Below the pieces are notes generated by a model. The model saw only the letters and a program-made list of their open reading frames with translations, ran no database searches and was not told the DNA's origin. A stretch of DNA of 64,000 nt from Capitulum mitella (lineage: Eukaryota; Arthropoda; Thecostraca; Pollicipedomorpha; Pollicipedidae): the NCBI GenBank assembly GCA_030062745.1, contig CP099839.1, positions 315,001 to 379,000 on the forward strand, read 5' to 3'. Positions 1 through 32,514 of the stretch are shown here, in pieces (the first letter of the stretch is position 1; each line of letters begins with the position of its first letter). Both the position numbers and the translations under genes were made by a program.

Positions 1-520
1 TCAATGCATAGAATGGAGTGCCCAGGACTGCCCAAGGCTTTCCTTCCGTGCATCGTTCCAGCGAGGACTGACTACTAGTGCCAGAGAAACAATGCAACGA
101 GGCTGCCGTGGTGATTCTGAAACTGAGAAAATGACAAACTGGTGGCATTCGGTGCTCACTTTCCGGTCAACTGGACCCTAAGGGCAATTAAAACGCCAAA
201 GGAAGTGCAGAGACCACGAGAATCACGCAATGAACACTATGAACACGATGCCAGTGGCAGCAAAAAACGTTCTGAAGCAGTAAAACAGTCATATATATCA
301 TGTTTTAAGACGAGACTATACACCGTACAAAAACGAAAGAAACCTGAGAAGTTTAAATGGACTCCCGATAAAATGAGTGAAGCAGCATGTGAATACATAA
401 CTGGCAGCCTGAACGTTGATAAAATTCGCGATAAAACCAGCTCAACAAAAACTGAAATGAACTACCCGATGTCGATGCTTCCAAACGACAGAAAGCCAGC
501 CATTTCGATAATTTTCTCAC

Positions 521-3500
521 CTCTGCCTCGAGAGCTCATCATGCTCTCGCCTCGCATCTTGGCGCCCTCCTTCATGAACGGCGGGACGTATTTGCCGCCG
601 GTGGACGTGCTGCTCATCTTGCTGGCCGCCTCCTCCTCCTGCTTCACCTGTAGCACACAGAATTGTGAAATGGTTGGTGATGCAACTCTACCTGGTGACA
701 GTGACATTTTTTGGTATCATATTTTTGCATACTTGTAATTCCCAGGGGCAGAGAATTCGGACCCTACATAAGGGACGGCCAAGCAGATAAACTGCAATGA
801 GCAACCGGAATTTCGTTGATCACCGACACGTATACATTTGCTATATATAAAATAAAATTCCTGCAATGCAGACACATTACCTCGTCCAGGACACCGATTT
901 CCTTGTAGGGACACTGTGTGGTCCAATGGTCACCCTTGCAGTACCGGCACTTGATCTGTCCCTTGTTCTGCTCCTTCAGCTTGGCCCGCACGTCGTCCGA
1001 CTCATCCTTCTCCTCCTCGTTCGCCGTGATGAACTGCATGTTGACCTCCTCGGCCATGATGGTGGTGGCAGTGTTCGGACCGGGCTTATCGTTTTTTGAC
1101 AGCCCAAACTTGGACCAAACTTTCCGCTTGGCCACGTCCTTTGAAACTTTTCTGCTCTCAACCTTTATGGTTGTAACAATCTACAAGAACAAAGATGAAA
1201 ATAATAAAAATGCAGAAGAAGGTTTACATGAAGGAACCTGACAGGTGAAATTTAACATTAAAGATGGGATACATATCAAAAACTCAGATATCACAATATC
1301 AAAATCCTTTTTCAAAAATCAGATGATTTTCTGTTAAGAAAACAACATCCTTTGAAAAGACAATTTTATATTTCCTGTGAATGTCAATGGAGAACATAAG
1401 TTGCAACTTTACCTTTTCCTTCTTCCCATCATCATTGATTCTGTACTCTGTTACAATTTTGGTACCATTTGGAAGGAGCTTCTCTTCAGTTGGTGGCAGA
1501 GCTGGCTCTGAAACAAATTGTGCAACACAGTTGGTTGTTTCTAAACCAATGTATGGACCAAATTGCCTTGGCCACAGTTCCAACAAAAACTGTACACACA
1601 GGCATTCGTTCACAGAGAAAAGTAAAGTAATATCATAATTAAAATATCTAAAGCTGGTATCATGCAAAACTAAATGACAATGCAGTTTCCATGGCTTAGT
1701 GAATCTGTACACATGCTGAATTCCATCTGCACTTACAGACTCTATACAACCTGCACAAAATTCTATAAGCTGTTACATTATTCCAAATGTCACACTACGC
1801 ATGAGAGAAACTACTGTACTCCTGGGGAAAAACATTTTGTTAGAGCAGCCATCATCTACTCCTTGATCTACATGGTTCAGTCTTACACAACTTAACTCAC
1901 CATCACTCTCTTCAACTTCATCAGCCCATGAGGTTGACCTGAGAACAAAATTAACACATTATATGTGCTCAATGATTACTGGGTTGTCTACTGATGCTGA
2001 CAGGTTTTTCCACATTAAAACCTACCACACAAACTGCAGAGGAGGAAGGCAAAATGTTGGTATGACATGGACAACAGAAACTGGACAAAGGCCAATGTGA
2101 AGATTAGTACACTGCATACACAACATGAAAAGCAAATTCTCATTGTGGTTTTGTGATGTCAAAAAACAATGCTGATATGTACTACTTACAATGTCAGCCA
2201 AGAGAATTTAGAGATATGTTACTTCTTCCTATAAAAATATGATACAAAGTAATCAAATGGCAAATTAGATGAATTTTACTATGACAACTTAATATTTGCA
2301 TACATGACATCATTTACCATTTTGATTATTTGAACTTAATATTTGCATACATGACATCATTTACCATTTTGATTATCTGATATGAAGGCAATGTATCATA
2401 TTTACATTCTCACGCACCACATTTGCTATACATAAATTGCAGAAGAGCACATAAGCTTTCCTATGACAAAATGAAATGGCAACATCACCAGTATGGCTTC
2501 TGAAGGAAATGGAGCTATATTTCTCCAGAAGCAATCATGGGACATAATGGTAAGCTGAAGACACAACCCTGTGCTGGAGGCATGGTATAGGATACTACAG
2601 GCCACAGGCTGATTAAGGGTGAAATCGGACTTGGCTCTGTCCAACAGACGTTAGGTCATGCATCTAAATCAGTCAGGTTAGGTTAGATGAAGTTAGGTTA
2701 GGTGTTAGGTTACTTATTTTGTTAATCTTGTTCATTATTCATGAAGTCTGGTTATACTAATGATGTCATAAGGCCCAAAATGCCTCAACCTTGAAAAATA
2801 CCCTTTTTGAATTCATTACCAGAGAATCCCAGCAGAAACCAAAAAGACAAGTGGCAGGATGACGGTCAGCGATGAATGGAGTGACAATATTATTTGGTAA
2901 TTTTTCACTTTTTCATCTTGCAATGATATTATGCAGCACTGAATCACAAGTATTTGCTTGAACACCATCTGCTGTATGATTTTTATTTCATTAATGTCAT
3001 TTTTCACTGAAAATAGGTGCTTGGTGAAAATGTGTTGCATGGCTGATGATGTAAACTTTGCAATAGTACAGTTTATTAAATATAGCATTTACATAACAAA
3101 TGAGAAATGATTAATTCAAGGCAAATTCATGGTGAAAATTTAGTAATTGTATATATGTGCAAATTTAACATTATTTACCATTTAAACAGTTGTGCAGCAT
3201 CTTTACAAATGAGCAGTGTTTAAATGAGATTAAAGCAGAAAGCACTTCATTTGTCTGCTGTGAAATGAGGTTACTCTTAGTAAGCTGGCCTGCATGGCAG
3301 TAGTGCATGGTATGTTCTTGCAATTTTATTATTACTTTATGAGAAATTAAGATATTTTTTGGTACCACAAGAAAGAGAATATGGTATCCTTACAGTGGTG
3401 GCCATTGTACAGAAGAATACCCTAAACCTGTGATGTAAAAATCTTCATTCTAGCCTTGGGTGATCACAAAGATGAATGCTGACAAATAACCAGCACGGGC

Positions 3501-3736
3501 TACAACTTGGTTGGCAAGATAACAGGATACTCCAAAGTACAAAATGTTATGCAAACAATATACAGCATTATTCAGCCTTCATCACTATCCTGACACAAAA
3601 CCACATAACAGTACAATATACCAAAGTTTACCAATGCACCTACATAAGATATTTTCTAGAAAACCGGTCATGAACTCACATTTTGAAGAGCATATGGATG
3701 AAACATTTCTACTTACTCGTTTTCCAGAGACGGCAT
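521..3736 (-). CDS. EIF3G: eIF3 subunit G, copy A, first five coding exons (3' exons off the window)
   Basis: This is eukaryotic translation initiation factor 3 subunit G, a cytoplasmic RNA-binding subunit of the eIF3 complex that supports scanning. Coding exons, 5' to 3', are 3717-3736, 1901-1938, 1413-1507, 881-1180 and 521-647, all with GT-AG borders and compatible phases. The first exon begins ATG CCG TCT and its donor is GTAAGT. The second encodes the conserved SWADEVEE block. The 881-1180 exon encodes the zinc knuckle CRYCKGDHWTTQC. The 521-647 exon encodes GGKYVPPFMKEG. The RRM exons would lie left of position 1, so the apparent truncation is a window edge, not a proven break. The coding sequence is identical to copy B, so this is either a very young duplicate or the other allele. 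Confidence 0.9.
2585..2712. repeat. Dispersed repeat with TTAGG-like tract (in an EIF3G intron)
   Basis: A segment beginning near GGATACTACAGGCCACAGG and ending in several TTAGG units recurs at about 23560-23690 (copy B) and, more diverged, at about 40035-40120 in the probable PSMD7 intron. The third copy keeps the order: GGCCACAGG, then a GGGTGA..GGACTTGGCT stretch, then an AGGTTAG-rich tail. This looks like an interspersed element of unknown class found in introns, with a tail that happens to resemble the arthropod telomere unit. The three copies are too few to define ends. Confidence 0.55.
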
Positions 3737-3794
3737 TTTGATGTTCGAGACTAAACCAGGGGAAAATGTCCAGTCTCTGACGGCGCAGGCGAGT

Positions 3795-6700
3795 CTGCAA
3801 GAATGATAGATATTTGCAATCGACACACTCCTTTAGCAGGACAGTTCGCACAAAACCGCGTCTCTCACTCCCGCAGACGAAGCTTCCCAGAGGCCCGGGC
3901 ACCTGCAACGTTGGGAAAGCGACGCAATGCCATGCGCCATAATGGGAAACCAGACTCAACCTTCGTTGACAGAAATGGCGCAGTTCTAGCACATGTAGCG
4001 TTGCTACCAAACCAAGGATTTCAAAATTGACTTTCGTTATGTTCTCCGGATCTAAAGAAGCTTCGTCCACTGATGGTATCGACATACCTGTAATAATCGT
4101 CCCAAAATATCTCTGGATCTTTACAATGACACCTAAAACAAAACAGTTTATGAAGGTCTCCTTTCTTGATCGATTCTCTGGAGTAAGATTTAAGAGGAGT
4201 TCTGTTGTAAGTCAAATAGGAAGCTGTATTGTCGCCACTCTGTTTTCACGTTTCGTGGATGGAGAACAATTCTGATTTTTAGGGGGGCTGAGTGGGTTTT
4301 CATATCACCTCTTTCCATTTTTCAAACATTGGCGCAATTCTAAATCAGCGAATTAGTGGGATGCCGCATTCCCTCAACATATATAAATAAGCAGGGGAGG
4401 GGGCGCTATTAACACACACCTGAGGATTACGCAATGATTATGCCTAAACTGGAGGACTTTCGTAATCATCATAATTCGGGGAACAGAAAGCTTATTTGAG
4501 CCGCACCCGACTGGCAGGCGGGAGGGTGTTTCTCGATCCGATCCGATCCGAGAAACACTGGGTCTCAGTAGGTCTGTGATTAATAAAGACTAAGTAAAGG
4601 TACCAACGGATAATGTAAGCGCATACCGATACACGTCACATTTCGCTGAGTTACGGAATATTTAAGCAGGAACGTCGAGTTAAAGATACAGCGATTTCCG
4701 TGCAACAGCGCTTGACGGGCACTAATTTTGGCATGCCCTTGTTTTGGTTGAGTAGTACCTCACCAACTTGTGCTGAAGTTCTCCGTGCACTGGAACTGCT
4801 TCTCGAAATTTGTCCAAGGTCGAAAAACGGGACGCGCGTCCTGGGTCTTGTCTCCTCTTTCACCCAACCCCATCCCTTCTCCCCATTCGCTGCATATGCA
4901 CCGTACTCGATCTGTGTTCAGTGAGGTATGAGATGGCGGTGCGAATAGAGCCAAGATCAGACTGTGTCTCTTGGAGCTGCACGGAAGGAGTACGGACCAT
5001 AAAATCGTTGCTATGGGCCCTGTGCCTCTACGGTGATGGATCGATATTGGACATTAGACCATTAATGTGCTTGTTAACTTCCAGTTTATGTGACGTAGGC
5101 ACCCAGTTAACGCACTCTAAGCATCCAGCTAAGCATTCAGTCACCGCGCTCTTGGGAACTGTTCGTATAGGCGTCCCCTTGCAAAACTGTAAACATTGAA
5201 CTCGGTGCAATACAAAACAAAACAGAGTATGGAAAGTGCAATTCCCGCATCCAGCTAAGATTTTTGCAGCTGCTCCAGGACGACTGCTTTGTTCACTCTG
5301 AAACTTTGCATAGTTGAGTATGGAGTCTTTTTACACGTTGTCTGAAAATTTGAGGTCAGTATCTTGGCGGGCCACTAACTTATGACATATTTCTCCAGGG
5401 CACGTCATGAACGTATTACGTTATGATGACGGTTCTCATCGAATAACGCCTGTTTTAAGCATTTTGCGTATTCAGTCGTACTCAGTCTTAAACGTGCGTA
5501 ATCCATGCTATCGGTGACCTCTGCACTGTGTTATCTGGCCAAGGTTATCTCAGGTCAAAATCATGAATAGAGGTTGTTGACCTTTCTCACCTTTTGTCGA
5601 CCTTGAAGGGGCCTGGATGTAATCGGAAACAGTGAGTTGTATACCAATAGTAGTTTGAGTCTTTATTTGTTTTGCAAAGTCGTTTTGGGCTCATTAAAAG
5701 CGCTCTTGGTGTTACGTCTCATAGGATCCAAAGAAAACCAGGATCAAACGCCATGACCTCTTTGGACGTCGCCAGTAAGGTTACTGCGTGACCTCAAAGA
5801 GTCAAACTGTGTTCTATCGTGTACCTACAAGACCACTCTATACGTTCGTTTTTGTCTTGTTGCTCTGTCGAGCCAGGTTTGGAAATGCATGGGGATTCGC
5901 ACTAGTCTCTCCCCCCCCCCACAATGCCGAAGGGCAAACAGCGAAACTGGGAGGGCTAAGGCCTCGGACACGATTAATAGCACAAGAATGAACTCCGTGA
6001 CAGTTCTGTCCAAGTGGCAAGGAGAAGTCCCGAATCCGTTTAAAACAACACCATTTTCTTTTTAACTCGCTTTTAATGTATCAAACAGTAATCTTGCGCA
6101 GTTAGGGGACGTAAAATCGTAAGATACGAGTATTTGGAGCACATGTCCAAATGACGCTCACTGAAACGCAATTCAAGATGTTTATCATCTGCTTGATGTT
6201 ACTGATGGTCAGTCTTGTCAGCGAGCGAGGTGCGTTTTTTTGCGTCCTAATAACTGTAAAAGACTGTTAAAAAAAACGTAACTGGGAAAGCATGCGCTTG
6301 ATATGAATTCACGGGGCCATTTGACAGCGAAACGTACAATGTTACATCAAGCATGTCTTCCCGAAACGATTTGGAATCCTTTGAAATGTACTTACAATGT
6401 CACAGCGCACACTCCACGCTGCAGAAAAGAACGACGTGCCAGGTGAAGTCATTCAGCTAATCTGGATGTGCTTTTAGCGATATCCAGAGTTATCTTCCTT
6501 ATGTCTGTGCGTTATGAGGTGCCGTGCGTCAATAGGGTTCTTTCCCCTATCTACCTCTGCGCATAGTTATATCTGTTAATTTGTGTTTCAATACATGGAC
6601 TGCGGAAGTGGGATGTTAGGACGGGACAGGGAGGGGGGAGGCAACGCGACAGCTGTCCCTTATAATATAGGTAATTTAATATTAAGCCATACGTAGTACG

Positions 6701-7000
6701 AAAATAACCTACTTTTAAAGGCTGGCTTTGCCCTTGCAACCCTGAAAACATCTTGCCGCCACTGATTAAAAAAAAACAAACGCATAGGCATTTAATCCGT
6801 GAGCGAATGCTGAAAATCTACAGGCTCAGCGCCAGCCATGATTTGCTAGGCCCCACTGCACTGGTCGTTTGGCTTGTCGCGTGAAGGTGGGATGGATCGC
6901 CCGTCCCAGAGAACGCGATTTTTTAAACACATTATCACTGCAGCTAGCAGATGGTCTTCAGGTCTCAGGCACAGCGGTTTCGGCGCTCACCGCCGTGTTA
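3795..7000. other. Upstream region of EIF3G copy A, no gene recognised
   Basis: CpG content rises sharply here compared with the EIF3G introns. The EIF3G leader exon has its acceptor at 3795, and a probable non-coding first exon lies within 3860-4085. The rest shows only short features: a GATCC tandem at 4535-4552, several AGGTCA-like half sites around 5530-5590, a C-run at 5911-5920, and a G-rich stretch at 6630-6650 followed by a CAGTGGCGGC-type terminus on the minus strand ending at 6764. I see no conserved reading frame. Confidence 0.6.
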
Positions 7001-7049
7001 AACTGTCACGAGCTCTCTCAGACCGTCTGCCTCGGCACACGGGCGTTTC

Positions 7050-7470
7050 GGACACGCTCGGCTCACGAGGGGGGGGGGGCGGCCCGGAAGCCGGCGGCAA
7101 TTCGGCGCCGAGCGCTGACAGCCGAGCGCCGACAGCGGCGCCGGACCGCCCCGGTGCCGGCCGGATCGCGGCGAAATGTGGCGGCCGCCTCGTCCGCGGC
7201 GCCCCAATCGGCGGCGGCAGACGCCAGCTCCGCCATCAGCCGCCGAATTTTGTGGCCGATGGGGCGTCGGCCGCGGCGAACTCATCAGACGGGGACACAG
7301 AGGCATGCGATTTGCCGCGGAGGGGCCGCACATAAATTTTGGCGACGTCACCTCATCAGGCCAGAGAATCAGGTTGCTGGTCCCAGATACGCTCATCAGG
7401 ACCCTGAAACTGCAGAGTGGCATCCGGAGGCGCGCAGAAACCCGGAGGGAGCCGACTGAGAGACCTTTGG
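7050..7470. other. GC-rich island (copy B at about 30660-31080)
   Basis: A stretch of very high G+C and CpG density, open in several frames on both strands, which is what GC-rich non-coding DNA gives. Its downstream half carries the octamer CTCATCAG or TCATCAG four times (about 7280, 7350, 7390 and 7508). It could be a CpG-island regulatory element. No protein family is recognisable in any frame. Confidence 0.5.
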
Positions 7471-7874
7471 GATCGAGCATACGCTGTACGACGAAACAAT
7501 AAGCCTGTTCATCAGCGTATGCTTTACATATGTCCTGCACGGGTGTCGATTTGCGTGTTGTTGTTGGAGCTCAGACTTACAATGTTTTGAGATTCTGATA
7601 TTGTGCCATTCTGCATTAATCGAAAACTAAGGGCGAAAACCTTTCATACTGACTCCATCAGTAGTTCTGAGAAGGCGAAACTCGTACGTCTCCGCCTTGG
7701 TCGCGGTACCGTACTACATCTTCCTGTCCGACAAATGCGTGTTCCGTGTAGACGCTGACGATGATGGCTCCGTTAATGAGTAACCCGGATTCTCTGCCGG
7801 CGGCGGAGGAAATGGGATAGTGACCGTGCGCTGGCATTGATTCGCGCCGGCCCCCGGCCCGCGGGCAGAATGCT

Positions 7875-7995
7875 GATTGGTTCGCCGCGGAAGGCGAGAC
7901 TGCACGCGGATAATAACGCCTCGCCTCAGGCCAAATCTGCGCTCCCCTGTCAATCAGGCACTATAAATAAACTGTTAGGTTTAATGTTACACTAT
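7875..7995 (+). promoter_or_regulatory. Candidate core promoter with inverted CCAAT, TATA box and initiator
   Basis: GATTGG (a CCAAT box on the other strand) is at 7875-7880, after a GC-box-like stretch. TATAAATAA is at 7962-7970. TTACACT, a match to the YYANWYY initiator, has its A at 7989, 27 bp after the first T of the TATA box. Order and spacing fit a focused RNA polymerase II promoter reading to the right. The same block is unchanged in copy B. No gene is recognisable downstream, so the transcript is unknown and the call rests on motif layout only. Confidence 0.3.
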
Positions 7996-8907
7996 ACCGT
8001 GCAGTGATTTTAAATGCACTTGTACCTTCATATTCCAGTAGTAATCTACCAGCACGGGGCTCTGGCACCCTGACGTCCCAGCTCGCAGTCAGTCGGACAC
8101 TAAATCAGAAACATTGCTGATGGATGTTGGATGTACTGGTATTGCATTCATCGTTTCACGCGAGCAAGAGAAGTGTCTTATGCGACTGCCACATCCGACA
8201 TGCGTAATGAAAATGAAAGACCCCGTCAATTAAAATGAAAACTAAGATGTTTCTCAAACGAAAAATCCGGCGTCACACGACACTCGTAGATTACCCGACG
8301 GACGAAAGATACCATATTTTTGAAACACGCGCTTCGTTTCGAACGGCAATCTGATTTATAATGCTCGTTTCGCAACATTTATTAGCATAGTTTTTTTAAA
8401 CCCTCTAGAAGCTTTATTTGGCATTTGTGGCAAATGACGGAATGCTCGTCTGAAAGAAGATTATTTGGGGTTTCTGAAAATATTTGAATGGCATGGCTAA
8501 GGCAATCTAGTCGAAAGATATTGTACACCAAACAAAGTGACGACACTCCTTTAAATCACCCTGAAGAGGCTGGCGTTTCATTTTCTTGAGAAAACCGAGG
8601 CAACATCCACCGCACTGGAGAGACTCGACACTGGGGTCTTGCTCGACACGACAAGATGGTACGAAGCGGAATTATTTCCATATCGTTTCCGAAAAGCAAA
8701 ATCCTGTTACAGTTTAGCAATGTCCTTGGGTTTATGTGAAGCACGATTTCAACAAGCATGAAACATAACACTAGCTATTTCTTTTTTGTTAATATTGGAA
8801 GGCTGAAAATCCTGCATTTTAGAACAGATGTTAGTGAAGGGAGGGGATATTTGGTAAGACCGGAGGAAATTTTACCGAGTGATGGGGCATTCCTTCCACA
8901 CTGAACA
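7996..8907. other. Intergenic, nothing recognised
   Basis: Ordinary mixed-composition sequence shared with copy B (about 31604-32514). I see no reading frame, RNA gene or internal repeat worth naming. Confidence 0.6.
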
Positions 8908-9577
8908 TTAGGGCGGCACTTAATCTAGGGGTTAATTTTCAACTTTCGAATTTCGAACTGCTCATTGGCCGGGTAGTTCCAATAGATAAGAAAACTCTAA
9001 ATATACAATTTCAACCTGATCTGATAAAAATTAGACCCTCCGCCACAGTTCGGAAGATGTAGCTGTGGTGATCTTTGCCTTGTTTATTTAGTTGCGCGTT
9101 TGTTTTGTTTTGTTCAATGACCGCAGGTCTGGTATCGGTTGTCGTATGCTTTTGCTATATCTAGTTTCGTCATTACCGCGGATCCTATCATGTATCGGTT
9201 GTCGAATGCTTTTGCCATGTCTAGTTTTGTCATTACTTTCAGTTGCTTCTCTACCTCAGTCGTTTTGCTCGGTCGGCTCGGGTGAGCATTGTTAATGTAG
9301 TTGAATACTGGCTTGCCTTCCCTTGCCCTTCATCGCTGCTTGAGAGCCTCCGCACTTCCTGGGTGAGTCGATTTAAATTGACATTTGTTATTTCTTACTT
9401 TGTTCTTTCATGGAGTCAGTGTCTTTCCGCATTATTTTCTTTTGCTAAAATAAATCAACGGTGCGGAATTCCTCTTTCATAACCACCCTCAACCTCCACA
9501 TAGCTACTTCATGGTGCAGCCAAGTTATGTAGTTTCCAAAAAAATGTTTCTTTTCAGGTACGTAGTGTGAGTCAACA

Positions 9578-10348
9578 ATGACGACGAGATCTTCGACGAA
9601 GATATGGCTGATTGGACATACCATACCAAAGATTACAGGCGGACAGCTGCCATCAAATGGAGATGTCCTTCGTGTTTTCTTCCATATCCACCGGACCGTG
9701 AAGAACACTGCGGCTGTTGCGGCCTCCGTGACGAAGGAGATCCTCCCCTTCTGGGAGCGAGCCAGGATCCCAACTCAGCTCCCCAAGAACGTCACGCGGA
9801 AGGTCCTTGGCCTTCATGGCAAATGGCACGCACTTGGGAAAAATCGCTCCAGGAACAGGCCCGCTGATCAGGCCGCTCAGCAAGCCTTCCAGGAAGAACT
9901 TGGGGACCTCTTCGATTGTGCAGCATCTGATGCCATTGCCAAGATCGTCATCGAAGAGGATCGCCAGTTCCTCTTCGCTCAGCGAGAGAAGGGCCGTCGA
10001 GGACTCATGGCTGGTGTCGACATGAAGCTTGCCGAAATGGAGGCGCGGAAGGCCGCCTCGTCCAAGGCCCAGGCCGATCGAAAGGAAAAGGCCACGCAGT
10101 ACGCCACCGAGGCCACGGCCACGCTGGAGCTCGAAGACTCTGACGACACTCATTCTTCGTGCAGCAGCTCCTCTTTCCCCTTCATGGGCGTGGCACTGCC
10201 GCCCCCCGGCACTGACGCCGCTGGAGCCTCCACTTCCAGCGCCCCACCCCTCGGAAGAGACGGGCCACTCGAGGGGTTGTTAGCGCTCAGCTCGCATCAG
10301 CTCTCGACAGGACCAAAGTCGCCAATCGGGCTGCTGTTCACGTCTTAA
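9578..10348 (+). CDS. hAT-like transposase, N-terminal reading frame
   Basis: This frame opens with ATG at 9578 and encodes a domain typical of transposase-like proteins common in crustaceans, other arthropods and cnidarians. It contains a block like VLRVFFHIHRTVKN followed by ILPFWERARIPTQ, then LGDLFDCAASDA, EEDRQFLFAQREKGR and GVDMKLAEMEARKA. The later part is charged and then Ser/Pro rich. The frame closes at 10348. The continuation of the protein, reading RTKVANRAAVHVL, is already in the next frame upstream of 10348, so a frame change is needed around 10200-10260. This is either a decayed copy or a short intron that I cannot define. Family recognition is from memory of motif order, not a search. 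Confidence 0.6.
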   Translation: MTTRSSTKIWLIGHTIPKITGGQLPSNGDVLRVFFHIHRTVKNTAAVAASVTKEILPFWERARIPTQLPKNVTRKVLGLHGKWHALGKNRSRNRPADQAAQQAFQEELGDLFDCAASDAIAKIVIEEDRQFLFAQREKGRRGLMAGVDMKLAEMEARKAASSKAQADRKEKATQYATEATATLELEDSDDTHSSCSSSSFPFMGVALPPPGTDAAGASTSSAPPLGRDGPLEGLLALSSHQLSTGPKSPIGLLFTS

Positions 10349-10365
10349 GCGCCACTGCGGCTAGC

Positions 10366-11233
10366 TTGGGCCACAATCCTGGAGAACTGGTACTTAACCG
10401 GGAGTCTATTCGGCGGGCTCGTCTCAAGGTCCGAAAGGAGATGGCGGAGGAGATTCGAATGAAGTTCTCGCCTTCTGTCCCGTTAGTAGTCCACTGGGAC
10501 GGCAAGATTGTGAAGGACCAAGGCGGGGACAAAGTGGACCGGATCGCTATCATCGTCTCAGGAGAAGGAGTGGACAAGCTTCTTGCTGTCCCAAGGCTGG
10601 ATACAGGAACTGGCCGTGCTCAGGCGGACGCCGTCCTTGACACCCTCCGAGACTGGGACCTGGTCGACAGAGTGATCGGTCTGTCGTTCGACACGACGGC
10701 AGCCAACTCGGGCCAGCACAATGGTGCCTGCGTGCTGATTGAAGATGCTCTTGGGAGACAACTTCTCAACCTGGCCTGCCGTCATCATATGCTCGAGCTG
10801 GTGGCGGATAAGGCGTTCACCGAGGCGATGGGGCCATCTAATGAACCGGACATTGCCATCTTCCAGCGCTTCCAGAAACGGTGGAAACTCATTGACACTG
10901 CAAACTTCAAGCCCTTCACGACCGATGATGCCCCAAGAGAGCTGCTTGATGCCCGGGATGAGCTGATCCTCGGCTTCAAGAGGCAGCTCAACCAAAGACA
11001 GCCCCGTGACGACTACCGGGAACTCCTGGAACTCAGCATCATCTGCCTTGGTGGGGTTCCTCCACGAGGAATTCGGTTCCTCAAACCTGGAGCCCTGCAT
11101 CGAGCGCGCTGGATGGCGCGAGTTATCTACTCGCTGAAGATACATCTCTTTCGCGAGCAGTTCCACGCCACGAACCGTGACAAGCGTGGGATTGAGCGCT
11201 TTGTTCTTTCGCACTGCAGCTCTACGTCCCGGC
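10366..11233 (+). CDS. hAT-like transposase, catalytic-region reading frame, cut by the gap
   Basis: The frame is open from upstream of 10366 to the gap at 11233. Key blocks are LVVHWDGKIVKDQGGDKVDR, then LPRLDTGTGRAQADAV-like sequence, then GLSFDTTAANSGQHNGACVL, whose Asp fits the first catalytic acid, and LLNLACRHHMLELVADKAF, which fits the hAT CxxH motif. The rest of the catalytic core and the C-terminal dimerisation part would fall in the N run. The rightward strand agrees with the left terminus at 8908. Codon use is more GC-rich than the flanks, as expected for a recent arrival. Confidence 0.65.
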
Positions 11234-11733: not shown

Positions 11734-11814
11734 GAGAAGAGGAGAGATAGGATCACCCAGAAGTCCCCTGGCAAAACCTTGTAACTGCACAGTCCCCTGG
11801 ACGGAACATGAGTC

Positions 11815-16222: not shown

Positions 16223-16334
16223 GTTACAACGTTAACTACATCAAGGTGGCGAGAATTTGCGTCATGCCCCGCTATGATGTTTTAAATGTGGTGTCCCCGC
16301 GCGGAGGACGACCTGACTATCTCCCTGCCTACAG

Positions 16335-19220: not shown

Positions 19221-19226
19221 TTTATT
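19221..19226 (-). terminator. Polyadenylation signal AATAAA of EIF3G
   Basis: AATAAA on the minus strand, 140 bp past the EIF3G stop codon in the terminal micro-exon. It is the nearest such hexamer downstream and fits a short 3' UTR. Confidence 0.55.
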
Positions 19227-19365
19227 AATGCATAATATCTCTCTTGACGCGTCGCCAAGCCGTGAAAGAGAAACGAGCAAAAATACATTTCACCGAAGCC
19301 TGTATTGTTTCCGTTTCCAACGCCATACGCGAACCATAAAAAGCGAAGCGGCCCCCCGGATGCTC

Positions 19366-20171: not shown

Positions 20172-20258
<87 letters not shown>

Positions 20259-23200
20259 TAACAATAACAACAATACCAATAATAATAAGAAGAAAAAGAA
20301 GAAAAATAACATTAAAATGCCCCTTTTCCATGTGTTTACAGTTGCTTTTTGACCTAAAAACAGCTATTCTATTCATCCGACAATACATTCAAACGTCTAT
20401 TCACGTGGGTCAGAAACTAGGAATGAACCAACACTGCATAAATCAAACTGAGACCACTTTCCATCCTTGGCAATCACAGACGACGCTTAAGGCCAAAGTG
20501 CTGTTGATGACGTAACTTACAGACAGCAAAGCATACGGTCAGCGTGCCAGCCAGAACACCATGTGGAAGGACTCAAGGAGGTTGCATCTTTATCACACCG
20601 GTCCATTCTGCGTCAACGGTTTTCTGGTGCAGGGCACAGAGCACTTCGGCTGGCAGCTATTCAACACACGAACAATTTTCCAAGGAAATTCGTGAAGAAA
20701 AACGCATTCAACTGCAAAGCAGTGAAACTTTCAGGACCGACATATTTTCTATACTACATTAGCATATACTGTATTGCGTCCCATCCATCCGGGGATGGGG
20801 ACGCAAGACGAGGACGGGCTGCCCGAAAGGGGACGAGACGCACTACCGCACGGGCTGCCCGAACGCTTTGTATATATTTTTTTGTAATTTCCTATCTTTC
20901 AATGCATAGAATGGAGTGCCCAGGACTGCCCAAGGCTTTCCTTCCGTGCATCGTTCCAGCGAGGACTGACTACTAGTGCCAGAGAAACAATGCAACGAGG
21001 CTGCCGTGGTGATTCTGAAACTGAGAAAATGACAAACTGGTGGCATTCGGTGCTCACTTTCCGGTCAACTGGACCCTAAGGGCAATTAAAACGCCAAAGG
21101 AAGTGCAGAGACCACGAGAATCACGCAATGAACACTATGAACACGATGCCAGTGGCAGCAAAAAACGTTCTGAAGCAGTAAAACAGTCATGTATATCATG
21201 TTTTAAGACGAGACTATACACCGTACAAAAACGAAAGAAACCTGAGAAGTTTAAATGGACTCCCGATAAAATGAGTGAAGCAGCATGTGAATACATAACT
21301 GGCAGCCTGAACGTTGATAAAATTCGTGATAAAACCAGCTCAACAAAAACTGAAATGAACTACCCGATGTCGATGCTTCCAAACGACAGAAAGCCAGCCA
21401 TTTCGATAATTTTCTCACCTCTGCCTCGAGAGCTCATCATGCTCTCGCCTCGCATCTTGGCGCCCTCCTTCATGAACGGCGGGACGTATTTGCCGCCGGT
21501 GGACGTGCTGCTCATCTTGCTGGCCGCCTCCTCCTCCTGCTTCACCTGTAGCACACAGAATTGTGAAATGGTTGGTGACGCAACTCTACCTGGTGACAGT
21601 GACATTTTTTGGTATCATATTTTTGCATACTTGTAATTCCCAGGGGCAGAGAATTCGGACCCTACATAAGGGACGGCCAAGCAGATAAACTGCAATGAGC
21701 AACCGGAATTTCGTTGATCACCGACACGTATACATTTGCTATATATAAAATAAAATTCCTGCAATGCAGACACATTACCTCGTCCAGGACACCGATTTCC
21801 TTGTAGGGACACTGTGTGGTCCAATGGTCACCCTTGCAGTACCGGCACTTGATCTGTCCCTTGTTCTGCTCCTTCAGCTTGGCCCGCACGTCGTCCGACT
21901 CATCCTTCTCCTCCTCGTTCGCCGTGATGAACTGCATGTTGACCTCCTCGGCCATGATGGTGGTGGCAGTGTTCGGACCGGGCTTATCGTTTTTTGACAG
22001 CCCAAACTTGGACCAAACTTTCCGCTTGGCCACGTCCTTTGAAACTTTTCTGCTCTCAACCTTTATGGTTGTAACAATCTACAAGAACAAAGATGAAAAT
22101 AATAAAAATGCAGAAGAAGGTTTACATGAAGGAACCTGACAGGTGAAATTTAACATTAAAGATGGGATACATATCAAAAACTCAGATATCACAATATCAA
22201 AATCCTTTTTCAAAAATCAGATGATTTTCTGTTAAGAAAACAACATCCTTTGAAAAGACAATTTTATATTTCCTGTGAATGTCAATGGAGAACATTAGTT
22301 GCAACTTTACCTTTTCCTTCTTCCCATCATCATTGATTCTGTACTCTGTTACAATTTTGGTACCATTTGGAAGGAGCTTCTCTTCAGTTGGTGGCAGAGC
22401 TGGCTCTGAAACAAATTGTGCAACACATTTGGTTGTTTCTAAACCAATGTATAGACCAAATTGCCTTGGCCACAGTTCCAACAAAAACTGTACACACAGG
22501 CATTTGTTCACAGAGAAAAGTAAAGTAATATCATAATTAAAATATCTAAAGCTGGTATCATGCAAAACTAAATGACAATGCAGTTTCCATGGCTTAGTGA
22601 ATCTGTACACATGCTGAATTCCATCTGCACTTACAGATGGAAGTTTGAAGTTTGAAGAATGCAGTTTCCATGGCTTTGTATCTGTACACATGCTGAATTC
22701 CATCTGCACTTACAGACTCTATACAACCTGCACAAAATTCTATAAGCTGTTACATTATTCCAAATGTCACACTAGGCATGAGAGAAACTACTGTACTCCT
22801 GGGGAAAAACATTTTGTTAGAGCAGCCATCATCTACTCCTTGATCTACATGGTTCAGTCTTACACAACTTAACTCACCATCACTCTCTTCAACTTCATCA
22901 GCCCATGAGGTTGACCTGAGAACAAAATTAACACATTATATGTGCTCAACGATTACTGGGTTGTCTACTGATGCTGACAGGTTTTTCCACATTAAAACCT
23001 ACCACACAAACTGCAGAGGAGGAAGGCAAAATGTTGGTATGACATGGACAACAGAAACTGGACAAAGGCCAATGTGAAGATTAGTACACTGCATACACAA
23101 CATGAAAAGCAAATTCTCATTGTGGTTTTGTGATGTCAAAAAACAATGCTGATATGTACTACTTACAATGTCAGCCAAGAGAATTTAGAGATATGTTACT

Positions 23201-24758
23201 TCTTCCTATAAAAATATGATACAAAGTAATCAAATGGCAAATTAGATGAATTTTACTATGACAACTTAATATTTGCATACATGACATCATTTACCATTTT
23301 GATTATTTGAACTTAATATTTGCATACATGACATCATTTACCATTTTGATTATCTGATATGAAGGCAATGTATCATATTTACATTCTCACGGACCACATT
23401 TGCTATACATAAATTGCAGAAGAGCACATAAGCTTTCCTATGACAAAATGAAATGGCAACATCACCAGTATGGCTTCTGAAGGAAATGGAGCTATATTTC
23501 TCCAGAAGCAATCATGGGACATAATGGTAAGCTGAAGACACAACCCGGTGCTGGAGGCATGGTATAGGATACTACAGGCCACAGGCTGATTAAGGGTGAA
23601 ATCGGACTTGGCTCTGTCCAACAGACATTAGGTCATGCATCTAAATCAGTCAGGTTAGGTTAGATGAAGTTAGGTTAGATGTTAGGTTACTTATTTTGTT
23701 AATCTTGTTCATTATTCATGAAGTCTGGTTATACTAATGATGTCATAAGGCCCAAAATGCCTCAACCTTGAAAATTACCAAATTTGAATTTGAAATATTA
23801 TTATTATTGAATTAATAAATTACCCTTTTTGAATTCATTACCAGAGAATCCCAGCAGAAACCAAAAAGACAAGTGGCAGGATGACAGTCAGCGATGAATG
23901 GAGTGACAATATTATTTGGTAATTTTTCACTTTTTCATCTTGCAATGATATTATGCAGCACTGAATCACAAGTATTTGCTTGAACACCATCTGCTGTATG
24001 ATTTTTATTTCATTAATGTCATTTTTCACTGAAAATAGGTGCTTGGTGAAAATGTGTTGCATGGCTGATGATGTAAACTTTGTAATAGTACAGTTTATTA
24101 AATATAGCGTTTACATAACAAATGAGAAATGATTAATTCAAGGCAAATTCATGGTGAAAATTTAGTAATTGTATATATGTGCAAATATAACATTATTTAC
24201 CATTTAAACAGTTGTGCAGCATCTTTACAAATGAGCAGTGTTTAAATGAGATTAAAGCAGAAAGCACTTCATTTGTCTGCTGTAAAATGAGGTTACCCTT
24301 AGTAAGCTGGCCTGCATGGCAGTAGTGCATGGTATGTTCTTGCAATTTTATTATTACTTTATGAGAAATTAAGATATTTTTTGGTACCACAAGAAAGAGA
24401 ATATGGTATCCTTACAGTGGTGGCCATTGTACAGAAGAATACCCTAAACCTGTGATGTAAAAATCTTCATTCTAGCCTTGGGTGATCACAAAGATGAATG
24501 CTGACAAATAACCAGCACGGGCTACAACTTGGTTGGCAAGATAACAGGATGCTCCAAAGTACAAAATGTTATGCAAACAATATAAAGCATTATTCAGCCT
24601 TCATCACTATCCTGACACAAAACCACATAACAGTACAATATACCAAAGTTTACCAATGCACCTACATAAGATATTTTCTAGAAAACCGGTCATGAACTCA
24701 CATTTTGAAGAGCATATGGATGAAACATTTCTACTTACTCGTTTTCCAGAGACGGCAT
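19366..24758 (-). CDS. EIF3G: eIF3 subunit G, copy B, complete
   Basis: Seven coding exons: 24739-24758, 22878-22915, 22311-22405, 21779-22078, 21419-21545, 19626-19866 and 19366-19381 (837 nt, 278 residues), close to the usual 270-320 of the family. Order of parts: N-terminal eIF3i-binding region with SWADEVEE; TEYRINDDGKKEK; IVTTIKVESRKVSKD; zinc knuckle CRYCKGDHWTTQC near residue 140; GGKYVPP linker; C-terminal RRM with RNP2 VRVTNL and RNP1 KGFAFISF, ending DHLILKVEWSKPSEK. The last four residues and stop come from a 16-nt micro-exon. Without that splice an in-frame TAA overlapping the donor ends the protein at EWSK. The leader exon extends to 24816, after a CTTGCAG acceptor. For the 21779-22078 exon I chose the acceptor at 22079 over one 18 nt further in because it keeps IVTTIK, which aligns with IVRTFR in the human protein. 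Confidence 0.93.
20174..20290. repeat. (AAT)n microsatellite in an EIF3G intron
   Basis: Pure AAT units from about 20174 to 20254, then an imperfect tail of AAC/AAT and AAG units to 20290. It lies between the RRM exon and the GGKYVPP exon. It gives long Ile/Leu-only frames that are not genes. Confidence 0.95.
22581..22715. repeat. Local tandem duplication in an EIF3G intron (copy B only)
   Basis: A segment from AGTTTCCATGGCTT to CTGCACTTACAGA occurs twice, separated by a short TGGAAGTTTGAAGTTTG linker. Copy A has it once. The second unit differs by a short deletion. Confidence 0.85.
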
Positions 24759-24816
24759 TTTGATGTTCGAGACTAAACCAGGGGAAAATGTCCAGTCTCT
24801 GACGGCGCAGGCGAGT

Positions 24817-25110
24817 CTGCAAGAATGATAGATATTTGCAATCGACACACTCCTTTAGCAGGACAGTTCGCACAAAACCGCGTCTCTCACTCCCGCAGAC
24901 GAAGCTTCCCAGAGGCCCGGGCACCTGCAACGTTGGGAAAGCGACGCAATGCCATGCGCCATAATGGGAAACCAGACTCAACCTTCGTTGACAGAAATGG
25001 CGCAGTTCTAGCACATGTAGCGTTGCTACCAAACCAAGGATTTCAAAATTGACTTTCGTTATATTCTCCGGATCTAAAGAAGCTTCGTCCACTGATGGCA
25101 TCGACATACC
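24817..25110 (-). promoter_or_regulatory. Probable EIF3G non-coding first exon and promoter region (copy A at 3795-4088)
   Basis: The leader exon (24739-24816) opens after a good acceptor, so transcription must start further upstream. A donor-like GTGAGAGACG lies about 75 bp before that acceptor, preceded by CpG-rich sequence containing CCATTATGGCGCATGGC. A short leader intron is the simplest reading. No TATA box is seen, as is usual for housekeeping genes. Confidence 0.35.
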
Positions 25111-27989
25111 TGTAATAATCGTCCCAAAATATCTCTGGATCTTTACAATGACACCTAAAACAAAACAGTTTATGAAGGTCTCCTTTCTTGATCGATTCTC
25201 TGGAGTAAGATTTAAGAGGAGTTCTGTTGTAAGTCAAATAGGAAGCTGTATTGTCGCCACTCTGTTTTCACGTTTCGTGGATGGAGAACAATTCTGATTT
25301 TTAGGGGGGGCTGAGTGGGTTTTCATATCACCTCTTTCCATTTTTCAAACATTGGCGCAATTCTAAATCAGCGAATTAGTGGGATGCCGCATTCCCTCAA
25401 CATATAAAAATAAGCAGGGGAGGGGGCGCTATTAACACACACCTGAGGATTACGCAATGATTATGCCTAAACTGGAGGACTTTCGTAATCATCATAATTC
25501 GGGGAACAGAAAGCTTATTTGAGCCGCACCCGACTGGCAGGCGGGGAGGGTGTTTCTCGATCCGATCCGATCCGAGAAACACTGGGTCTCAGTAGGTCTG
25601 TGATTAATAAAGACTAAGTAAAGGTACCAACGGATAATGTAAGCGCATACCGATACACGTCACATTTCGCTGAGTTACGGAATATTTAAGCAGGAACGTC
25701 GAGTTAAAGATACAGCGATTTCCGTGCAACAGCGCTTGACGGGCACTAATTTTGGCATGCCCTTGTTTTGGTTGAGTAGTACCTCACCAACTTGTGCTGA
25801 AGTTCTCCGTGCACTGGAACTGCTTCTCGAAATTTGTCCAAGGTCGAAAAACGGGACGCGCGTCCTGGGTCTTGTCTCCTCTTTCACCCAACCCCATCCC
25901 TTCTCCCCATTCGCTGCATATGCACCGTACTCGATCTGTGTTCAGTGAGGTATGAGATGGCGGTGCGGATAGAGCCAAGATCAGACTGTGTCTCTTGGAG
26001 CTGCACGGAAGGAGTACGGACCATAAAATCGTTGCTATGGGCCCTGTGCCTCTACGGTGATGGATCGATATTGGACATTAGACCATTAATGTGCTTGTTA
26101 ACTTCCAGTTTATGTGACGTAGGCACCCAGTTAACGCACTCTAAGCATCCAGCTAAGCATTCAGTCACCGCGCTCTTGGGAACTGTTCGTATAGGCGTCC
26201 CCTTGCAAAACTGTAAACATTGAACTCGGTGCAATACAAAACAAAACAGAGTATGGAAAGTGCAATTCCCGCATCCAGCTAAGATTTTTGCAGCTGCTCC
26301 AGGACGACTGCTTTGTTCACTCTGAAACTTTGCATAGTTGAGTATGGAGTCTTTTTACACGTTGTCTGAAAATTTGAGGTCAGTATCTTGGCGGGCCACT
26401 GACTTATGACATATTTCTCCAGGGCACGTCATGAACGTATTACGTTATGATGACGGTTCTCATCGAATAACGCCTGTTTTAAGCATTTTGCGTATTCAGT
26501 CGTACTCAGTCTTAAACGTGCGTAATCCATGCTATCGGTGACCTCTGCACTGTGTTATCTGGCCAAGGTTATCTCAGGTCAAAATCATGAATAGAGGTTG
26601 TTGACCTTTCTCACCTTTTGTCGACCTTGAAGGGGCCTGGATGTAATCGGAAACAGTGAGTTGTATACCAATAGTAGTTTGAGTCTTTATTTGTTTTGCA
26701 AAGTCGTTTTGGGCTCATTAAAAGCGCTCTTGGTGTTACGTCTCATAGGATCCAAAGAAAACCAGGATCAAACGCCATGACCTCTTTGGACGTCGCCAGT
26801 AAGGTTACTGCGTGACCTCAAAGAGTCAAACTGTGTTCTATCGTGTACCTACAAGACCACTCTATACGTTCGTTTTTGTCTCGTTGCTCTGTCGAGCCAG
26901 GTTTGGAAATGCATGGGGATTCGCACTAGTCTCTCCCCCCCCCACAATGCCGAAGGGCAAACAGCGAAACTGGGAGGGCTAAGGCCTCGGACACGATTAA
27001 TAGCACAAGAATGAACTCCGTGACAGTTCTGTCCAAGTGGCAAGGAGAACTCCCGAATCCGTTTAAAACAACACCATTTACTTTTTAACTCGCTTTTAAT
27101 GTATCAAACAGTAATCTTGCGCAGTTAGGGGACGTAAGATCGTAAGATACGAGTATTTGGAGCACATGTCCAAATGACGCTCACTGAAACGCAATTCAAG
27201 ATGTTTATCATCTGCTTGATGTTACTGATGGTCAGTCTTGTCAGCGAGCGAGGTGCGTCTTTTTTGCGTCCTAATAACTGTAAAAGACTGTTAAAAAAAA
27301 CGTAACTGGGAAAGCATGCGCTTGACATGAATTCACGGGGCCATTTGACAGCGAAACGTACAATGTTACATCAAGCATGTCTTCCCGAAGCGATTTGGAA
27401 TCCTTTGAAATGTACTTACAATGTCACAGCGCACACTCCACGCTGCAGAAAAGAACGACGTGCCAGGTGAAGTCATTCAGCTAATCTGGATGTGCTTTTA
27501 GCGATATCCAGAGTTATCTTCCTTATGTCTGTGCGTTATGAGGTGCCGTGCGTCAATAGGGTTCTTTCCCCTATCTACCTCTGCGCATAGTTATATCTAT
27601 TAATTTGCGTTTCAATACATGGACTGCGGAAGTGGGATGTTAGGACGGGACAGGGAGGGGGGGGGAGGCAACGCGACAGCTGTCCCTTATAATATAGGTA
27701 ATTTAATATTAAGCCATACGTAGTACGAAAATAACCTACTTTTAAAGGCTGGCTTTGCCCTTGCAACCCTGAAAACATCTTGCCGCCACCGATCAAAAAA
27801 AAAAAAAAAAAAAAAACGCATAGGCATTTAATCCGTGAGCGAATGCTGAAAATCTACAGGCTCAGCGCCAGCCATGATTTGCTAGGCCCCACTGCACTGG
27901 TCGTTTGGCTTGTCGCGTGAAGGTGGGACGGATCGCCCGTCCCAGAGAACGCGATTTTTTAAACACATTATCACTGCAGCTAGCAGATG
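25111..27989. other. Upstream region of EIF3G copy B, no gene recognised
   Basis: Counterpart of 4089-6960 with only point differences and homopolymer length changes (C-run near 26937, G-run near 27658, a longer A-run at 27797-27816). No conserved reading frame. Confidence 0.6.
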
Positions 27990-28305
27990 GTCTTCAGTAG
28001 GGTGGATCGAAAAAAATAAATCAACTTCTTAGGGGTCAAAACGCGTGCGCGTGAATGTGAAAAAAAGAAAAATGAGGACAAAAAAATATTTAAGATATTT
28101 TAGATAGGGCGCACTAAGCATTTTTGGGACCAGAAACACGCCTTCTAAGCGTTGAAGTCTCCATTGCTTTAAACACTTTGCACAAGAAGGTAACCCTTCA
28201 GAAGTCTATGTGAATCCTGTGAGTGATAATTTTCGGCGTTTAGCGCATGCGCCGAACAAACGCTGTTTGCGTCATGTCGGCAACCATCGAAACATATCAT
28301 AATTG

Positions 28306-28316
28306 TCATCGTCATC

Positions 28317-28347
<31 letters not shown>

Positions 28348-28362
28348 TCATCATTATTATCT
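28306..28362. repeat. (CAT)n microsatellite inside the hAT-like element
   Basis: CAT/CGT/ATT triplets, imperfect. It lies between the truncated transposase and the left terminal repeat, where the missing C-terminal coding region would be expected. Confidence 0.9.
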
Positions 28363-28531
28363 TCACCATTCATCAAACGCCATCCCAGACACAACGTTAA
28401 ACCAGAACTATTTATTTGTGATGAATAACATTCCGCAACAAACTCCGCTGCCACTAATAAACCAGCCTCAGCGGTCACTTGTCGCTCGAAGCCAGTCGTA
28501 GAAGTCCCTCCTCGTGCCCATCACTGGCAGA

Positions 28532-29278
28532 TCAGTGCTGGACCGGGCTTTTGCCAGTATCAGTGCATGACGTCCACTGTGTCCCGCCTTCTTCTCTGCT
28601 GTTTGTGTGACTTCTTTCACCCATCTGATCCAAGGATGCTGTGCCGTCTGATCCAAGCACCACTGGATGCGCATCGTTGTCCCGTATCACGTCCAGCAAC
28701 TCCTTCGCGATATCTGCAGCACTTCCGCTATTTGGAGACACGCGATCGACATACCGATGGCCGAGCTCGGTAACCACTACCTCGTGAAGTTCTTTGGTAA
28801 ACGTCAATTTCTTTCCAACTTTCTGCAGCGTCTTGTCCTCCCTACCGTCGTAATAGTATCCTGCTAAGCGGTCACGTCGGTTTTGCAATGAGCTTTCAGC
28901 CACCTCTTCTTTACCGCATTTGTCTCTTTGTCGCCGGATTTTGCTGCGGTCTGTCAGCTCAGCCTTGTTGTGCTCTGTGATTATCCCATAATCAACCAAA
29001 GCTGCGTTCAGCAAGCCAGCAGCGAAGCGATCAGAGATAACGCACCGATGACACATCCGCGAAAAATTCGGAAGTTGATGGCGGTTCTGTCCGGCGACAT
29101 CGTCCGCGTCATCATCGGAACTAGGCGAATAAGAGCGGCTTGCATCAGCTGCTTCCGTATCACCCGTCTGACACTTTTCACTGCTATCATCGTCGTCATC
29201 TGCATCCCCTTCGGTCAGTTGCCTTTCCTCAGGATCGTGCTGCCTGTCCCTCTTCTGTCTCTTTTCCGCTAGTTTCAT
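28532..29278 (-). pseudogene. hAT-like transposase fragment, middle part
   Basis: Opens with ATG AAA CTA GCG (KLAEKRQKRDR). An acidic Asp/Ser stretch follows, then RFAAGLLNAALVDYGI, then LAGYYYDGREDKTLQK, LHEVVVTELGHRYVDRVSP and HPVVLGSDGTAS. The last block matches the first catalytic Asp region (SDGTxxN) of a transposase-like family common in arthropods and Hydra. Right after it the homology stops and unrelated residues run to the stop: the rest of the catalytic core is deleted. The frame is separated from the upstream part by a TAA codon after GGVDRKTTE. Confidence 0.65.
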
Positions 29279-29311
29279 ACTTTTCCCCCTTCTCTTCTGC
29301 CTTCAGACATT

Positions 29312-29861
29312 TTACTCAGTTGTCTTCCGGTCAACGCCGCCTATGTGGAGCTTTCTCTCTCCTCGCTGGCCTCTGAGGAAAGCTACTTCTTGAGCTGGCA
29401 CCCTTGTAGAAGCTGGATACGTGCCGCAGGGGACATCAGCAAGATCGCATCGGCACCACATGATGTCAAATAAGCCATCGTACTCTCGCTGCATACTCAC
29501 GAACTTTCGACCCTTGGGCCAGTCTTTCTACGTTCTGAATTATTCTGTTCTCCGAAATAACATTTGACATCTCTCTCTCGGTCGTACCCGACGTGCCACT
29601 CATTTGAGACGTCTCTCCGTCGTCCACTGTAATAAGATTGGCTCTGTCCCAGATGGCTACTATGGCATCCTTGACTGCTTTTGCTATTTCTCGTTTTGTC
29701 GGCTTCTTTCCAGAAGGAGTTATCCTTTCATTCCGTGTCTTCACGTAAAAGGCATACACTTCTCTTTTCCACGGTAGCTGGTTTATGGGAAGAGCGTCCG
29801 GGCATGTTTGCAGCAAAGGGTGTTTCGTTCTCTGTCTTGTTGATGGTCCTGGATTACTCAT
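29312..29861 (-). pseudogene. hAT-like transposase fragment, N-terminal part
   Basis: 29861-29466 opens with ATG (MSNPGPSTRQRTKH) and has WKREVYAFYVKTRNERITPS and AIVAIWDRANLITV, equivalent to the FFHIHRTVKN...FWERARIPTQ blocks of the element at 9578. Translation then continues in another frame as REYDGLFDIMWCRCDLADVPC to GGVDRKTTE (about 29500-29312), so one frame change is present around 29470-29500. Together with 28532-29278 it follows the usual order of the family. Confidence 0.6.
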
Positions 29862-30584
29862 TTTAGTTCAGTTCAGAATGTCACTGTGTCACAGAATGTC
29901 ACAGAATGTCATCCCCTGCGGTCCGAATGTTGACGGAACACACCCGAGTACTAAATCTCTGGTCACCACGCCACAGCCCAGGGACCAGCGCGCTACTCCT
30001 CTGACGGGTCTGTCTGATTCGACCGCTCTCCGATGACAACAAAGCGCTTCGCTGCGAGGTATCGTTTACCGGCACCGATCAAGGTTTTCAAGAGCGTCTT
30101 CAGAGATGAGCAGCGTGGGCAGCGATGTGTGGGAAGCCCACGAATTCGACTCGGACTCTATAGTCCGCAGCTCTTGCAGGTCGTGAGGCTCACTGGTGCG
30201 CGGTCTTAGCTCGTAAGGGCTACTGTCTGTCTACCACTTTATTCTACCTGGCAGTCTCCTGTTATTTGCTCAAATCCATGCTCATCACCTATCCGTGAAC
30301 TAGACACTAAAAGGTCCACAAAGCTACGCACAGCTGCGGTGGATGGTGACCGAGGTGTTATTTTGCTATGCGTTATGCTAAACCAATGGAGACTTGAACG
30401 CTCGGCAACGGCGAAACTCACTTCAAAGACGCTTCGTGCGCCCTTTCTAGAATATTTCCAATGCCTTTTTACCCCTTATTTTCCGTGTTTTCAGATCCAC
30501 GCGCACGCGTTTTGACCCCTAAGAAGTTGTTTTGCGACAAAAAATATATTTTCGATCCACCCTAGTCTTCAGGTCTCAGGCACA

Positions 30585-31480
30585 GCGGTTTCGGCACTCA
30601 CCGCCGTGCTAAACTGTCACGAGCTCTCTCAGACCGTCTGCCTCGGCACACGGGCGTTTCGGACACGCTCGGCTCACGAGGGCGGGGCGGCCCGGAAGCC
30701 GGCGGCAATTCGGCGCCGAGCGCTGACAGCCGAGCGCCGACAGCGGCGCCGGACCGCCCCGGTGCCGGCCGGATCGCGGCGAAATGTGGCGGCCGCCTCG
30801 TCCGCGGCGCCCCAATCGGCGGCGGCAGACGCCAGCTCCGCCATCAGCCGCCGAATTTTGTGGCCGATGGGGCGTCGGCCGCGGCGAACTCATCAGACGG
30901 GGACACAGAGGCATGCGATTTGCCGCGGAGGGGCCGCACATAAATTTTGGCGACGTCACCTCATCAGGCCAGAGAATCAGGTTGCTGGTCCCAGATACGC
31001 TCATCAGGACCCTGAAACTGCAGAGTGGCACCCGGAGGCGCGCAGAAACCCGGAGGGAGCCGACTGAGAGACCTTTGGGATTGGGCATACGCTGTACGAC
31101 GAAACAATAAGCCTGTTCATCAGCGTGTGCTTTACATCTATCCTGCACGGGTGTCGATTTGCGTGTTGTTGTTGGAGCTCAGACTTACAATGTTTTGAGA
31201 TTCTGATATAGTGCCATTCTGCATTAATCGAAAACTAAGGGCGAAAACCTTTCATACTGACTCCATCGGTAGTTCTGAGAAGGCGAAACTCGTACGTCTC
31301 CGCCTTGGTCGCGGTACCGTACTACATCTTCCTGTCCGACAAATGCGTGTCCCGTGTAGACGCTGACGATGATGGCTCCGTTAATGAGTAACCCGGATTC
31401 TCTGCCGGCGGCGGAGGAAATGGGATAGTGACCGTGCGCTGGCATTGATTCGCGCCGGCCCCCGGCCCGCGGGCAGAATG
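30585..31480. other. GC-rich island and flank, copy B
   Basis: Counterpart of 6975-7870. The island is at about 30660-31080, with the same repeated CTCATCAG motif. The G-run that is nine long in copy A is interrupted here (GGGCGGGG). Confidence 0.6.
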
Positions 31481-31482
31481 CT

Positions 31483-31603
31483 GATTGGTTCGCCGCGGAA
31501 GGCGAGACTGCACGCGGATAATAACGCCTCGCCTCAGGCCAAATCTGCGCTCCCCTGTCAATCAGGCACTATAAATAAACTGTTAGGTTTAATGTTACAC
31601 TAT
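31483..31603 (+). promoter_or_regulatory. Candidate core promoter, copy B
   Basis: Same inverted CCAAT, TATAAATAA and TTACACT layout as at 7875-7995, unchanged in sequence. Confidence 0.3.
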
Positions 31604-32514
31604 ACCGTGCAGTGATTTTAAATGCACTTGTACCTTCATATCCCAGTAGTAATCTACTAGCACGGGGTTCTGGCACCCTGACGTCCCAGCTCGCAATCAG
31701 TCGGACACTAAATCAGAAACATTGCTGATGGATGTTGGATGTACTGGTATTGCATTCATCGTTTCACGCGAGCAAGAGAAGTGTCTTATGCGACTGCCAC
31801 ATCCGACATGCGTAACGAAAATGAAAGACCCCGTCAATTAAAATGAAAACTAAGATGTTTCTCAAACGAAAAATCCGGCGTCACACGACACTCGTAGATT
31901 ACCCGACGGACGAAAGATACCATATTTTTTAAACACGCGCTTCGTTTCGAACGGCAATCTGATTTATAATGCTCGTTTCACAACATTTATTAGCATAGTT
32001 TTTTAAACCCTCTAGAAGCTTTATTTGGTATTTGTGGCAAATGACGGAATGCTCGTCTGAAAGAAGATTATTTGGGGTTTCTGAAAATATTTGAATGGCA
32101 TGGCTAAGGCAATCTAGTCGAAAGATATTGTACACCAAACAAAGTGACGACACTCCTTTAAATCACCCTGAAGAGGCTGGCGTTTCATTTTCTTGAGAAA
32201 ACCGAGGCAACATCCACCGCACTGGAGAGACTCGACACTAGGGTGTTGCTCGACACGACAAGATGGTACGAAGTGGAATTATTTCCATATCGTTTCCGAA
32301 AAGCAAAATCCTGTTACAGTTTAGCAATGTCCTTGGGTTTATGTGAAGCACGATTTCAACAAGCATGAAACATAACACTAGCTATTTCTTTTTTGTTAAT
32401 ATTGGAAGGCTGAAAATCCTGCATTTTAGAACAGATGTTAGTGAAGGGAGGGGATATTTGGTAAGCGCGGAGGAAATTTTACCGAGTGATGGGGCATTCC
32501 TTCCACACTGAACA

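Follow-up and report, generated by a model that had tools for sequence, protein, structure and literature searches.

Adjacent near-identical EIF3G blocks around a scaffolding gap in the Capitulum mitella assembly, best explained as retained haplotypes

Genes and features at the locus

The window, that is, the whole 64,000-nucleotide stretch of Capitulum mitella DNA that was analysed, corresponds to C1:315001-379000 of an assembly of 477,042,490 bases in 16 sequences, and was considered together with its flanks on both sides as a 294-kb region (C1:185001-479000). As read from the sequence, a 500-N gap (11234-11733), the sole one within these 294 kb, separates a left contig from a right contig, hereafter contigs A and B, which harbor two near-identical blocks (copies A and B), each with the gene EIF3G. 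Pfam analysis identified the eIF3g and RRM_1 domains in reading frames; in copy B, these matches together with sequence comparison placed the coding pieces on the minus strand at 19625-19867 (RRM), 21420-21545, 21797-22078, 22305-22415 and 22882-22908, the last encoding 9 residues. The comparison of the gene covers these five coding pieces, with the first coding exon not among them. The main exon region of copy A, located by comparison with copy B and by genome search, lies on the minus strand at 767-1180 and encodes the same protein. Over the five pieces the deduced proteins are identical, and the sole coding difference is a silent change in the RRM piece (C1:334655). The initial annotation had described the coding exons as identical, which holds for four of the five pieces and not for the RRM piece; the RRM exon of copy A lies outside the window, beyond the reach of a comparison confined to it. 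A whole-genome search with the main exon returned two places, C1:315767-316180 and C1:336665-337078, with 100% identity at each.

Elsewhere in the window, to the right of the region shared by the two contigs, an open frame of 358 residues at 42424-43497 contains JAB and MitMem_reg domains, and presumably encodes a PSMD7-like proteasome subunit. A 72-bp tandem unit present in 6.3 copies at 56623-57073 has one frame free of stops, which gives a repeated peptide of 24 residues.

Extent and divergence of the overlap between the contigs

Comparison of the 294-kb region with itself (thresholds of at least 93% identity and at least 400 bp) aligned C1:305970-323908 with C1:326773-347515 as near-identical pieces, and more sensitive comparisons pushed the match leftward to C1:305949 and C1:326748, so that the left contig pairs over C1:305949-323908 with the right contig over C1:326748-347515 (window 11748-32515), in direct orientation. 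Contig B begins at C1:326734 and is matched from its base 15 onward; at the other end, the overlap stops at C1:323908, the last base of contig A before the transposon in which this contig breaks off. The shared interval is hence delimited by contig ends on both sides. Under a haplotype reading, copy A (haplotype 1), of which the right part occupies window positions 1-8908 and the remainder extends left beyond the window to C1:305949, would be paired over its whole length with copy B (haplotype 2) at 11748-32515. Delimitation by contig ends was our own criterion for a false (heterotype) duplication, or retained haplotig, a type of error reportedly treated by Ko et al. in 2022, and it is what was found here, as is a gap (500 N, 11234-11733) between copies on the same scaffold.

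These borders differ in part from those initially proposed from the window alone. The match between 1-8908 and 20899-32515 was recovered, reaching one base farther than claimed, in blastn segments that are 98.5-99.6% identical. The proposed left border, 20899, did not stand: it is just the place opposite the window start, and the stretch 11734-20898, taken earlier for a separate segment, therefore belongs to copy B as its first part. The size of 23.6 kb given for a putative tandem unit is likewise an effect of the window edge. Within the 294 kb, the overlap is the sole direct repeat that exceeds 1 kb with at least 93% identity, and it straddles the gap; above 400 bp, the only other direct repeat is a tandem array of ~0.66 kb (C1:452204-452863), accompanied in the self-comparison by three inverted pieces from one transposon pair. 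No duplication junction, at which the end of one unit would meet the start of the next, was seen, and it would fall inside the gap.

The whole overlap contains 161 mismatches in 17,957 aligned columns. Forty-five of these, together with 5 small indels, are located within the opening 420 bp of contig B (11734-12153), which are noisy relative to copy A, with 18 in the first 34 bp alone; the first 14 bp do not align to copy A and the next 20 bp align weakly. This noisy start would reflect a poor contig-end consensus. Beyond the first 420 bases, 116 substitutions in ~17.5 kb (0.66%) were counted, namely 79 transitions and 37 transversions, along with 22 indels, five of them of at least 20 bp and the largest a transposon. 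The remaining long differences, all present in B only, are a 39-bp repeat-length difference (16735-16773), an extra ATA-type repeat of 51 bp (20212-20262), a local duplication of 79 bp (22601-22679, detected by blastn and alignment) and a 45-bp insertion (23772-23816). Within the window alone (1-8908 versus 20899-32515), 64 substitutions and 11 indels remain. The earlier figure of about seven mismatches in 1.7 kb was reproduced exactly (7 over the first 1739 bp), and the 79-bp and 45-bp differences, the homopolymer differences and the 500-N gap were all confirmed. As judged from the alignment, the copies appear to differ by changes of polymorphism type: substitutions, repeat-length changes and a transposon with a clean empty site. 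Counted per kb, the substitutions are unevenly spread over the overlap (chi-square of 38 with 16 d.f., p 0.0015); evenness and the transition ratio were considered as discriminators and set aside, both being compatible with alleles and with young paralogues alike.

The genome was searched at the DNA level with probes from both ends of the overlap and from one EIF3G exon region. For the right-end probe the best 40 of 1282 candidates were scored and for the left-end probe the best 40 of 3341, a procedure by which distant copies could be missed, near-identical ones hardly. Among these, the portion of the right probe lying within the overlap matched only copies A and B, and the near-identical matches of the left-end probe were likewise restricted to A and B, its other matches, mostly at 77-86% identity, belonging to a family of dispersed repeats. 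Genome-wide (with best-40 scoring for the end probes), the searches uncovered no third near-identical copy, whether for the overlap ends or for the EIF3G exon. A second copy was also not found for the A flank, C1:305001-305948 (best 40 of 3341 candidates), or for the B flank from C1:347516 to ~C1:350640 (window 32516-35640; best 40 of 1282 candidates), whose sole other match in that set was 63 bp on C13 and which beyond ~C1:350640 runs into a dispersed repeat. Some other scaffolding error, by which one block would have been brought in from another locus or individual, is conceivable to the extent that the gap makes the join depend on scaffolding; yet it is extremely improbable, given allele-like divergence and the fact that best-40 scoring showed neither the overlap ends nor the tested flanks in any further near-identical copy.

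Transposons in the two copies and the break of the left contig

The transposon present in B only (27998-30564) was delimited by alignment and has inverted ends TAGGGTGGATCG. On either side of it (27990-27997 and 30565-30572) lies an 8-bp target duplication, GTCTTCAG, of which copy A retains the single intact site; the extra 2575 bp in B correspond to the transposon plus one copy of GTCTTCAG. A second, inverted copy of this element, 91-94% identical in two pieces, was observed ~70 kb leftward at C1:269930-273455. In copy A, by comparison with family copies, 8909-11233 comprises the first 2325 bp of another DNA transposon of ~3525 bp, preceded at 8901-8908 by CTGAACAT, its presumed left target-site duplication in view of the 8-bp duplications in other family copies; the right partner presumably lies beyond the gap. 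The clean empty sites reported initially for both insertions were thus verified for the B insertion, and for the A insertion on one side only, because the gap cuts the element off. We take both elements to be hAT-like from their 8-bp duplications and TAGGG ends. They resemble hAT DNA transposons in these target duplications and in their short inverted ends, and differ from them in that their open frames lack a Pfam transposase domain: four open frames yielded no hAT transposase domain by Pfam, only a sub-threshold match to DKCLD, for which reason the elements are called hAT-like and not hAT members.

Contig A stops inside its element, of which ~1.2 kb at the far end are missing here. The terminal 934 bp of this contig were found over their full length in at least 20 places (itself included) at 99% identity or more, with 20 further weak matches, among the best 40 of 54 candidates. 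In eight of the nine other copies fetched, the far inverted end lies ~1.2 kb past the point at which contig A stops, and seven of the nine carry perfect 8-bp target duplications, the exceptions being L051, in which the duplication differs, and L054, the near end of which was not located by the search. The family is young and apparently very recently active, and its many near-identical copies (at least 20 places at 99% or more) would make it a natural breakpoint for the left contig. Two members of the family on C8, L052 (C8:4993523-4994457) and L051 (C8:5017196-5018130), lie on the same strand 23.7 kb apart with similar flanks, although the ~400 bp of flank compared is a minisatellite, which makes the similarity weak evidence; the pair is perhaps a second overlap of like type, or a local repeat.

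The start of contig B bears on whether the element could lie at the junction of a tandem duplication. Its first 35 bp were absent from the nine other element copies and from ~300 bp past their far end, and occurred nowhere else in C1:215001-479000 (264 kb), where pieces of 16 to 35 bp were sought allowing ~one error per nine bases. Contig B hence does not begin with the far end of the element, by which an arrangement of unit, transposon and unit is disfavoured. A real and recent tandem duplication that spans at least ~20-24 kb, includes EIF3G, has its junction in the gap and received its transposons later would account for copies that are direct, adjacent and ~99% identical, for an EIF3G that is intact in both (over the pieces compared), and for a contig layout equal to that expected of alleles. 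It is nonetheless distinctly unlikely: junction sequence was seen nowhere, the first 35 bp of contig B match neither the nine element copies nor any other place in the 264 kb, and the assembly break must happen to conceal the junction. Moreover, if the A element made the usual 8-bp duplication, as we infer, copy A continues past C1:323908, so that a unit would need to reach farther to the right, with a border that is never seen. The same objections apply to a tandem duplication carried by one of the two chromosomes only, i.e., a heterozygous copy-number variant. An allele-specific true tandem duplication is described once in the parts of PMC9516828 drawn on here, which lends this variant some precedent; that case lies within one contig, however, while here a gap intervenes, and the variant is very improbable.

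Origin of the two blocks and comparison with known systems

In agreement with the initial annotation, which had preferred two unmerged haplotypes, the best explanation, supported by contig-end borders, polymorphism-type differences and the breakpoint transposon and short of proof, is that the two blocks are probably haplotypes that were both retained, one on each side of the 500-N gap left by scaffolding (probability of roughly 0.88). According to this explanation, a region of ~18 kb in a heterozygous animal would have been assembled as two alleles on two contigs with overlapping ends. One haplotype would have the young 3.5-kb transposon, near-identical to many others, within which the assembler would halt, giving the left contig; the other, devoid of this transposon, would have yielded the beginning of the right contig. 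Scaffolding would then have placed the contigs as neighbours with a 500-N spacer and left the overlap unmerged. Since alleles and a tandem duplication broken by a gap predict the same contig layout, the sequence by itself cannot settle the choice between them. Nothing extra is required by the allele reading, whereas under a tandem duplication one gap must hide the junction, the remainder of the transposon and any additional stretch of the unit. Taken together, fixed or on one chromosome, a genuine and very young tandem duplication of EIF3G, with copies intact in the pieces compared and a recently active transposon near the hidden junction, is unlikely; were it real, a core translation factor that is otherwise single-copy would have been doubled recently.

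As retained haplotypes, the blocks would most likely make the apparent duplication an ordinary assembly artefact and not a real feature, and EIF3G would be single-copy once the artefact is removed. The gene count at this locus is unsafe without read data. Annotation of the assembly would count EIF3G twice, and the locus may serve as a worked case of a known type of error, false gene gains from unmerged haplotypes. If many contig ends overlap likewise, counts of gene families and of duplicated core genes for the species would be inflated.

A literature search on the heterozygosity of C. mitella found nothing relevant, and comparison is with other assemblies. According to the sections of PMC9516828 used here, gaps between copies on the same scaffold are a primary mark of false duplications, such marks were not found for true duplications, and the same-scaffold share of false duplications is only 7 to 24%. 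The present locus resembles the false duplications described there in having near-identical copies on one scaffold with a gap between them, and resembles in particular ZBTB11, a gene shown in a figure legend of that paper as falsely doubled beside itself, as EIF3G would be here; the definition given there adds half depth, 1-copy k-mers and discordant pairs, while the present case is known from the assembly sequence alone. In the Hi-C assembly AaegL5 of Aedes aegypti, as described in the portion of PMC6421076 considered, overlapping contigs arose from undercollapsed heterozygosity and displayed like long-range contacts, and contig gaps were fixed at 500 bp for statistics; in the portion of another study that was consulted, 500 Ns were inserted between contigs after 3D-DNA (PMC10421919). 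Overlapping contigs and 500-bp gaps are thus shared with AaegL5, in which the overlaps were merged, unlike here, where the overlap was left standing. Presumably closer to the present species, the barnacle Pollicipes pollicipes initially showed 21.1% duplicated core genes, reduced to 12.8% by haplotype filtering (PMC8917513, in the part drawn on); although a separate assembly, it offers a likeness in its retention of haplotypes from wild heterozygous animals.
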